50,702 nucleotides of DNA from a bacterium (GTDB taxonomy: Bacteria > Actinomycetota > Acidimicrobiia > Spongiisociales > JAENVV01): NCBI GenBank assembly GCA_024641305.1, contig JAHEDI010000002.1, positions 118,306 through 169,007 of the forward strand, read 5' to 3'. The position numbers and the translations under genes are program-made. The notes beneath the pieces are model-generated. The model was not told the DNA's origin and did no database searches. It worked only from the letters and a program-made list of their open reading frames with translations. The number at the start of each line of letters is the position of its first letter. Within the stretch, counting starts at the first letter, position 1. Positions 31,693 to 34,426 of this stretch are shown here, piece after piece.

Positions 31693-31712
31693 GATTTTCC
31701 AGGGTGCGTCAT
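31689..31712 (-). CDS. putative leaderless 7-codon leader peptide of betA
   Basis: ATG at 31712 opens seven codons (MTHPGKS) and ends with TGA at 31689, overlapping the betA start as ATGA. A TAGTGT box lies 8 bases before this ATG, so a transcript starting there would have the mini-ORF at its very 5' end. betA itself lacks a good ribosome site, so reinitiation is plausible. There is no direct evidence of expression. Confidence 0.4.
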
Positions 31713-31770: not shown

Positions 31771-31776
31771 TAAGCT
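31771..31776 (+). promoter_or_regulatory. -10 element TAAGCT upstream of HAD mini-ORF
   Basis: It lies 7 bases before ATG 31784, the start of a four-codon mini-ORF, not the HAD start at 31795. Confidence 0.5.
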
Positions 31777-31783
31777 GGTGCCG

Positions 31784-31798
31784 ATGAGGGTGGCATGA
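31784..31798 (+). CDS. putative leaderless 4-codon leader peptide of the HAD gene
   Basis: ATG AGG GTG GCA TGA encodes MRVA. The final ATGA (31795-31798) is at once the mini-ORF stop and the HAD start. The promoter spacing places the transcript start on the first ATG. GAGGG inside the mini-ORF could also act as a ribosome site for the HAD gene, so an ordinary short leader remains possible. Confidence 0.4.
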
Positions 31799-33110: not shown

Positions 33111-33116
33111 GCGACG

Positions 33117-33122
33117 ACGCTA
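33117..33122 (-). promoter_or_regulatory. -10 element TAGCGT, leaderless start
   Basis: On the minus strand TAGCGT lies 6 bases before the ATG at 33110. Confidence 0.55.
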
Positions 33123-33149
33123 TCGAGCGATCCGTGTGGGATGGCTGCA

Positions 33150-33830
33150 TCATTGTGGGCGACGAAACTGGCCTGAATCGATGTCGCCGTTGATCCGCAG
33201 GGTCGTCACCTCGACGGACTGAATCAGGCGGTTCTGATCCAGGTCAAATTTTTCAGAGCGGCGGGCAAACAGCACGCCGTCCGCCCATGCGAAATCCTCG
33301 TAGCGGGTTTCCTGCTCGGTGGTGGCCGCGGCCATGTCGGGGTGTAGAGCGCTCGTCTCGGTATCCCTGGCGATGAGGTACGACCGGGAGTCGACGAATA
33401 ACTGCTTCGTGAATCCGTCCGGTGCCCGATGGCTGATCTGCCAGTAGTCCTGCCCTGCTTCGTGGCGGCTGCCGACCAGCGCGAGCGTGTACCCGAGTGA
33501 CTGGTGTTCGTGAAGACCGAAGAGGTTTTCGGTCAAACCCCGCTGTAACGCCCCCCGACCAGCCGACGAAAGGTCCGACCCGACCGTGGCGCCCCTGGCA
33601 AGTTGCCAACCGCCCTCGGGCGCCAAACCCTCAGAGAAGACACGTTCGTCCTCCGCGAAAACGTCGATACGCATCAATCCGTCGCGTACGGCGGCGTAGA
33701 CGCCTCGGACGGAGTTCTCGGGTTCGACTATGAGAAGTGTTAGCTCTATCGCGTGAACGCTCTCGATTGCCGCCCGACCGCCGCGAGCTCTGGTGTGTAA
33801 GGCGATGATACGGTCGAGTGTCACGGTCAA
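33150..33830 (-). CDS. LolA-like hypothetical protein
   Basis: About 226 aa. The pattern of an N-terminal helix (ARGGRAAIESVHAIELTLL) followed by many beta strands with paired aromatic and charged residues resembles the LolA/LolB lipoprotein-carrier fold. No signal peptide or lipobox is present, which is odd for that fold. The family assignment is an inference and I do not recognise the protein by name. The open frame reaches GTG at 33857. The -10 box and mini-ORF favour TTG at 33830, overlapping the mini-ORF stop as TTGA, or GTG at 33824. Confidence 0.6.
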   Translation of the reverse strand: MTVTLDRIIALHTRARGGRAAIESVHAIELTLLIVEPENSVRGVYAAVRDGLMRIDVFAEDERVFSEGLAPEGGWQLARGATVGSDLSSAGRGALQRGLTENLFGLHEHQSLGYTLALVGSRHEAGQDYWQISHRAPDGFTKQLFVDSRSYLIARDTETSALHPDMAAATTEQETRYEDFAWADGVLFARRSEKFDLDQNRLIQSVEVTTLRINGDIDSGQFRRPQ

Positions 33831-33850
33831 TGCCTGGAGTGCGGGTTCAT
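33827..33850 (-). CDS. putative leaderless 7-codon leader peptide
   Basis: ATG at 33850 begins MNPHSRH and stops with TGA at 33827, which overlaps an in-frame TTG of the downstream gene as TTGA. TAGCTT lies exactly 7 bases before the ATG. It is one of three such arrangements within 2.2 kb. It is supported only by this geometry. Confidence 0.35.
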   Translation of the reverse strand: MNPHSRH

Positions 33851-33857
33851 CTCTCAC

Positions 33858-33863
33858 AAGCTA
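33858..33863 (-). promoter_or_regulatory. -10 element TAGCTT
   Basis: On the minus strand it lies 7 bases before the mini-ORF ATG at 33850. The GTG at 33857 abuts the element and would fall upstream of the expected transcript start. Confidence 0.5.
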
Positions 33864-33908
33864 CGCCGCCCGGGAGATCGATCGCGGCGCAGGCACGTTC
33901 CGGTTGGC

Positions 33909-33914
33909 TAGCGT
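33909..33914 (+). promoter_or_regulatory. -10 element TAGCGT with short leader
   Basis: A transcript from here would have a leader of about 13-15 bases that contains AAGGAGGT ahead of ATG 33935, a contrast to the leaderless neighbours. Confidence 0.5.
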
Positions 33915-33934
33915 GAGCCTGCAAGGAGGTCAGG

Positions 33935-34426
33935 ATGGTCAGGTTCGTCGATGGTCCCGTTATCGAAGTGTCGGTTGATATCGCCGCCTCGCCCGCACGG
34001 GTGTGGGAGCTGGTTTCGGACATCAACCTGCCGGCTCGATTTCAGGACGAGTTCAAGCGGGCTGAATGGGTCACCGAGGGCCCGGCCGTTGGGGCTGAGT
34101 TCATCGGGTACAACGAACGGAAAGGTTTCCAGTGGGACACGTCGTCGTGGGTGGTCGAGTATGTGCCGCTCCGGTCGTTCGGGTGGGCCGTTTCGGATCA
34201 GAACAATCCCGGAGCAACCTGGACCTTCCACCTATCTGAAACGCCCTCCGGTACCAGATTGACGTTTCACCGCCGGCTCGGGCCGGGCCCGAGTGGCCTA
34301 ACGGCCAGCATCGCCCGCCACCCCAAGGACGAGGAAGCGATCATCGCCGCGCGCGATTTCGAGCAGGCCGCCAACATGCAGGGCGTGGTTGATGGCATCA
34401 AGACCCTCGCCGAGGCGACGGTCTGA
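33935..34426 (+). CDS. SRPBCC (START/polyketide-cyclase-like) protein
   Basis: A 163-aa helix-grip fold. VIEVSVDIAASPARVWELVSDINLPARF is the family opening, and GATWTFHLSETPSGTRLTFHRRL the later strands. A hydrophobic cavity for a lipid or aromatic ligand is typical of the family; the ligand is unknown. It has the strongest ribosome site in the window (AAGGAGGT). It is convergent with the aldehyde dehydrogenase, with 5 bases between. Confidence 0.88.
   Translation: MVRFVDGPVIEVSVDIAASPARVWELVSDINLPARFQDEFKRAEWVTEGPAVGAEFIGYNERKGFQWDTSSWVVEYVPLRSFGWAVSDQNNPGATWTFHLSETPSGTRLTFHRRLGPGPSGLTASIARHPKDEEAIIAARDFEQAANMQGVVDGIKTLAEATV

Follow-up and report, generated by a model that had tools for sequence, protein, structure and literature searches.

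A candidate leaderless mini-ORF overlapping the start of a LolA-like gene as a possible ribosome-loading arrangement

The window, i.e., the whole stretch of 50,702 nt analysed here (positions 118,306 to 169,007 of contig JAHEDI010000002.1, assembly GCA_024641305.1; numbered here from the first base of the stretch), carries on its reverse strand an open frame of 235 codons, which runs from a GTG (33857-33855) to the last base of its stop codon at 33150 and is LolA-like by distant resemblance only. This GTG, with which the frame opens, directly abuts a putative -10 box, TAGCTT (33863-33858, reverse strand), whose first three bases are an in-frame TAG, so that a protein start further upstream is impossible. 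Seven bases, GTGAGAG (33857-33851), separate the box from an ATG (33850-33848), a spacing that lies within the 6-8 range at which the leaderless starts of this genome peak, and the ATG opens a mini-ORF of seven codons on the same strand (33850-33827; ATG AAC CCG CAC TCC AGG CAT TGA, encoding MNPHSRH). The stop codon of the mini-ORF, TGA (33829-33827), overlaps an in-frame TTG that is codon 10 of the main frame (33830-33828), and the junction therefore reads TTGA (33830-33827), a stop-start overlap of the kind that translational coupling at overlapping codons requires. Two bases (CC) further on there is an in-frame GTG, codon 12 (33824-33822), as an alternative site of initiation or reinitiation, and the next in-frame start after these two is codon 61. 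This layout can be read directly from the DNA, and all of its elements are present as the original prediction had described them. Within the region scanned (33800-33960), no TANNNT other than TAGCTT precedes the candidate starts. As for Shine-Dalgarno sequences, no strong one was found in the 20 bases before TTG 33830 or GTG 33824, with an AGG lying eight bases 5' of the latter, and the 20 bases that precede GTG 33857 hold nothing Shine-Dalgarno-like, there being no TANNNT at a spacing of 6-8 before this codon either.

Leaderless starts of the TANNNT-N6-8-ATG/GTG type are used genome-wide, as is seen directly from the positions of the box relative to the called genes. The sample comprised 1.67 Mb of the 3.42-Mb genome, with 1393 genes called by our own codon-usage procedure with best-scoring starts and no published gene finder, and errors in these starts blur all the counts given here. 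In it, a TANNNT at a distance of 6-8 bases precedes 108 of the 738 called ATG starts (55, 33 and 20 at spacings of 6, 7 and 8, with no more than 10 at each of the remaining spacings between 0 and 30) and 36 of the 417 GTG starts (24, 6 and 6, with at most 9 at the other spacings), and it is nearly missing at these distances from TTG starts (0, 0 and 2 of 203). No clear -35 signal was found in 109 leaderless sites, which is why a scan for the sigma-70 consensus between 31000 and 36500, in which no promoter appeared, says little. Two neighbouring genes have such starts in the own genome and in the congeners G001 and G003: TANNNT-N6, N7 and N8-ATG is kept before the YigZ-like gene, and TACGAT-N7-ATG before that of the aldehyde dehydrogenase. 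In view of the genome-wide peak, TAGCTT predicts a message that would begin at ATG 33850 and would not include GTG 33857, in agreement with the proposal, made from the start, that this GTG would be off the message if TAGCTT were the promoter. A GTG placed right after a TANNNT box is called as a start oftener than expected, both in the window (29941, reverse strand) and on other contigs. In four of the six listed GTG starts of this kind an in-frame ATG lies six bases after the box, so that the true start is probably the leaderless ATG and the GTG is usually miscalled.

The reading that we prefer, tentatively, is that a coupled leaderless mini-ORF loads ribosomes onto the LolA-like gene. TAGCTT would act as a -10 box, and the first transcribed base would be the A of ATG 33850 or one about a base away from it. 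The 5'-terminal AUG would then be bound by a ribosome, which would make the seven-residue peptide, the sequence of which would be irrelevant, stop at the UGA (33829-33827) and reinitiate on the spot, either on the overlapping UUG 33830 or on GUG 33824. Codon 10 or codon 12 of the open frame would thus be the first of the LolA-like protein. Between 33863 and 33824, the promoter activity, its 5' end, the translation of the mini-ORF and the reinitiation are what we infer from the arrangement of the sequence. TTGA junctions are seen directly between called neighbouring genes, where they make up 13 of the 147 four-base overlaps.

Is such a design commoner in this genome than chance would give? The tested set consisted of 942 genes with no called gene on the same strand within the 30 bases upstream. 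The mini-ORFs counted were those that start with ATG, have at most 20 codons and end in a stop overlapping an in-frame start near the called one (n = 167), and the expectation was taken from the same mini-ORFs with TANNNT at other spacings (0-5 and 9-60). With TANNNT at 6-8, the design appears 7 times in the 942 genes versus 2.84 expected (Poisson P 0.026) when the window is included, and 6 times in 97 versus 1.55 expected (P 0.005) when, also with the window, only best-called starts are taken, a strict set to which the TTGA case does not belong, the best-called start there being another codon than TTG 33830. Since it was the window that supplied the hypothesis, the fair test omits it, and the excess is then not significant, either in the remaining 904 genes (4 versus 2.84, P 0.32) or for best-called starts only (4 versus 1.55, P 0.07). 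The scan that had been suggested for this design thus shows a modest excess as long as the window is counted and no significant one once it is left out. That three neighbouring cases establish a shared mechanism is not supported, the class showing no significant enrichment elsewhere in the genome sample. The stretch of 2.2 kb between 31689 and 33863 holds three of the seven cases of the 1.67 Mb, a clustering that we cannot explain beyond chance and the pattern having been noticed there. Mini-ORFs starting with GTG show no excess in the 942-gene set (2 versus 3.72 expected), and re-pairing the upstream regions among genes gives a mean of 3.8 cases versus 6 observed (P 0.14), a null that retains part of the frame relation and is therefore conservative. 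In G022, which belongs to another family of the same order and has the same leaderless peak, 410 kb contained no ATG case versus 0.47 expected and two GTG cases versus 0.62. The mini-ORF design is rare and, weakly at best, more than chance.

These frequencies bear on the alternative that survives best, possible if somewhat unlikely, according to which the promoter acts as proposed and the protein starts by ordinary internal initiation at GTG 33824 (or TTG 33830), behind a leader of about 26 bases and possibly with some help from the AGG, the ATG and stop of the mini-ORF being incidental. Such a chance origin would agree with the near-chance frequency of the class outside the window and with the composition of a 1.32-Mb sample, in which the mini-ORFs overlapping a called start begin with ATG in 78 cases, with GTG in 72, with TTG or CTG in 158 and with four other codons in 297 in all. 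ATG is thus about as frequent as each of these four non-start codons, and is not favoured as such; in the same sample, out-of-frame TANNNT-N6-8-ATG near starts is about at the background level. Nevertheless, internal initiation would have to do without a strong Shine-Dalgarno sequence at either codon, and one would expect an AUG at the very 5' end of the message to draw ribosomes, judging from the leaderless peak of this genome and from the mycobacterial work of Shell et al. 2015 (PMC4633059).

The two further mini-ORFs of the same design that had been announced nearby are both present. The first (31771-31798, forward strand) has TAAGCT (31771-31776), seven bases and an ATG at 31784, and its codons, ATG AGG GTG GCA TGA, overlap as ATGA the start ATG 31795 of a HAD hydrolase gene. 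The second (31726-31689, reverse strand) has TAGTGT (31726-31721), eight bases and an ATG at 31712, and its codons, ATG ACG CAC CCT GGA AAA TCA TGA, overlap, again as ATGA, the start ATG 31692 of a GMC oxidoreductase gene. The HAD case is kept in G001, and so are the box, the ATG and the overlap of the GMC case, in which 6 of the 24 mini-ORF bases differ; with the DNA of the two genomes being about 92% identical, such retention is weak evidence of conservation. In G003 the upstream regions of both genes differ from those of the own genome, and in each an ATG mini-ORF overlaps the start (MCGGRAT before GTGA and MPDPP before ATGA, respectively), no TANNNT being found by eye at 6-8 before either of them. 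The HAD mini-ORF contains a GAGG five to six bases 5' of the HAD start, and an ordinary short-leader start is therefore possible for that gene. Among the GMC homologues of other organisms, for which 80 loci were sampled of 577 relatives, none of the 79 readable loci has a coupled leaderless mini-ORF. The best of these homologues suggest that the host is an actinobacterium, perhaps one of the Acidimicrobiia.

The four cases outside the window present a mixed picture in the congeners. In one of them (L094) the ATG of the mini-ORF is lost in G001, the sole match among four congeners. A second (C36), which precedes a gene whose product we take to resemble a ferredoxin, loses its -10 box in G001 and keeps it in G002, with no box seen in G003 or G004, and has a GAGGAG 5' of the main ATG. 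A third (L254) is kept in G001, and no matching ATG was seen in G003. The fourth (C39; L103:6150-6260, reverse strand, and L224-L226) reads TATGNT-N8-ATG-11 codons-RTGA, and its -10 box, N8, ATG, 11 codons and overlap are common to the own genome, G001, G003 and G004, with unrelated peptides. In this last case the main frame is also open upstream, by 32 codons in the own genome and G001 and by 94 in G004, and in G003 there is an open frame of 237 for a match of 119 residues; the gene may therefore simply start earlier, which makes the conservation ambiguous. In the nearest relative, G001, one of the four cases thus loses the ATG, one loses the -10 box and two are kept (one of them confounded by the longer open frame), and we count these losses against coupling. 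A mini-ORF of about 12 codons overlaps, as ATGA, the start of a ferredoxin-looking gene (L207:4700-4800 and L217-L220), and its frame is kept with a similar peptide in G001, G002 and G003, G004 showing a one-base gap.

The LolA-like gene itself is most simply a lineage-specific insertion. According to tblastn coordinates, the YigZ-like and the SRPBCC genes are divergent over 90 and 82 bases in G001 and G003 versus 824 in the own genome, and the gene is therefore most simply seen as an insertion of about 740 bases (window 33111-33934), absent at the same place in these two congeners. A search for orthologues in 79 near relatives returned the own genome only, and at E up to 0.01 there was no convincing relative in samples of the class (matches in 3 of 395 genomes, including the own) or of the phylum (2 of 396, including the own), the three non-own matches being short or marginal (E 3.9e-4, 0.002 and 0.008). 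No relative of the gene was found in the phages searched or by a pattern-based scan of the genome contigs. Six Paraburkholderia plasmid records match at 24-25% identity (E 1e-3 to 2e-2), and one Paraburkholderia homologue (25% identity) reaches PF17131 (LolA_like) at 14.8 bits, below the cut-off of 30. The window protein does not reach the curated cut-off of PF17131 and has no match in NCBIfam or, even when E values up to 10 are admitted, in Pfam; a PDB search by sequence returned 6 sequences at E up to 10, the best at 0.0055 over 47 residues, and a single-sequence structure model of the protein has a mean pLDDT of 39.

In the Paraburkholderia homologue, LTVDEII comes after a hydrophobic N-terminal segment, which looks like a signal peptide that is missing in the window protein, and the alignment covers residues 9 onward of the latter. 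Residues 1-8 of the long form thus lie beyond the part that is shared, as would fit initiation at codon 10 or 12, and initiation at GTG 33857 is compatible with this as well. The original prediction had named conserved residues between 33857 and 33830 as what would speak against it, and none appeared, in a test that is weak because no homologue was found whose alignment begins before residue 9. A conventional start at GTG 33857, on a transcript coming from further upstream and with TAGCTT being no promoter, is unlikely: it is the best-scoring start by codon usage, and its first ten codons score 0.42 in the main frame versus -11.65 and -6.1 in the other two, but it would add residues 1-8 from outside the homologous region, it has neither a Shine-Dalgarno-like sequence nor a suitably spaced TANNNT before it, and it belongs to the box-adjacent GTGs that are usually miscalled. 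Slightly less probable still is a damaged or truncated start region, in which the inserted gene would have lost its signal-peptide part (or the assembly would contain an indel) and the ATG, the stop and the TTG would be functionless, since, fitting as the insertion, the restriction to the own genome among 79 near relatives, the missing signal-peptide-like N-terminus and a low codon score (20th percentile among 539 genes with 150-350 codons) may be, the frame is unbroken over its 235 codons and typical of the genome both in overall and in third-position G+C (71st and 69th percentiles).

In favour of ribosome loading by a coupled leaderless mini-ORF we count the spacing within the peak, the presence of TAGCTT as the only TANNNT, the homology starting at residue 9, the modest excess obtained with the window and the mycobacterial precedent. 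Against it we count the lack of a significant excess without the window, ATG not being favoured, the re-pairing result, the counts in G022, a TTGA that falls outside the published RTGA definition and the absence of any orthologue among those searched. On balance, coupling is plausible and unproven. A more far-reaching version, which we consider doubtful, is that a newly inserted gene lacking a signal peptide came to be expressed once its frame was linked to a leaderless mini-ORF, with the ATG supplied by the promoter loading the ribosome and the TTGA/GTG junction starting the protein, in a lineage that would use such mini-ORFs as ribosome-loading devices for ordinary genes. If coupling holds, the coupled leaderless small ORF would extend from mycobacteria to another, presumptive actinobacterial lineage and to a TTGA junction, three testable loci would be available within 2.2 kb, and the gene-finder start at the LolA-like locus would be wrong by nine or eleven codons.

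How does this arrangement compare with known systems? Shell et al. 2015 (PMC4633059) describe mycobacterial "coupled" leaderless small ORFs, over-represented there, whose TGA shares bases with the start codon of the following gene (RTGA), and which are defined by mapped 5' ends and ribosome profiling together with the RTGA; their layout is sometimes kept where the peptide is not. The mini-ORF before the LolA-like gene likewise ends in a TGA that overlaps a downstream start codon and, with its seven codons, falls within the 5-50 codons of that class, the position of its start codon at the 5' terminus being predicted. Unlike the mycobacterial members, it has the tetramer TTGA, and for this reason it may be said to work like that class rather than to come under its definition, whereas the two companion cases, with ATGA, have the RTGA form. 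The GMC companion further resembles some mycobacterial members in that, between the own genome and G001, the layout is kept and the peptide is not. A further difference is that the present class, recognized by its sequence layout, is not significantly enriched outside the window. The hand-over of the ribosome at a four-base overlap, predicted here, is also shared with termination-reinitiation coupling, as covered by Huber et al. 2019 (PMC6728339) and by a 2025 review (PMC12548453), although neighbouring gene pairs are involved in the former and a seven-codon ORF here. That review repeats the idea of a short uORF whose sole role may be to deliver ribosomes and, on present evidence, the mini-ORF before the LolA-like gene is a plausible but ordinary instance of this known kind of ribosome loading.
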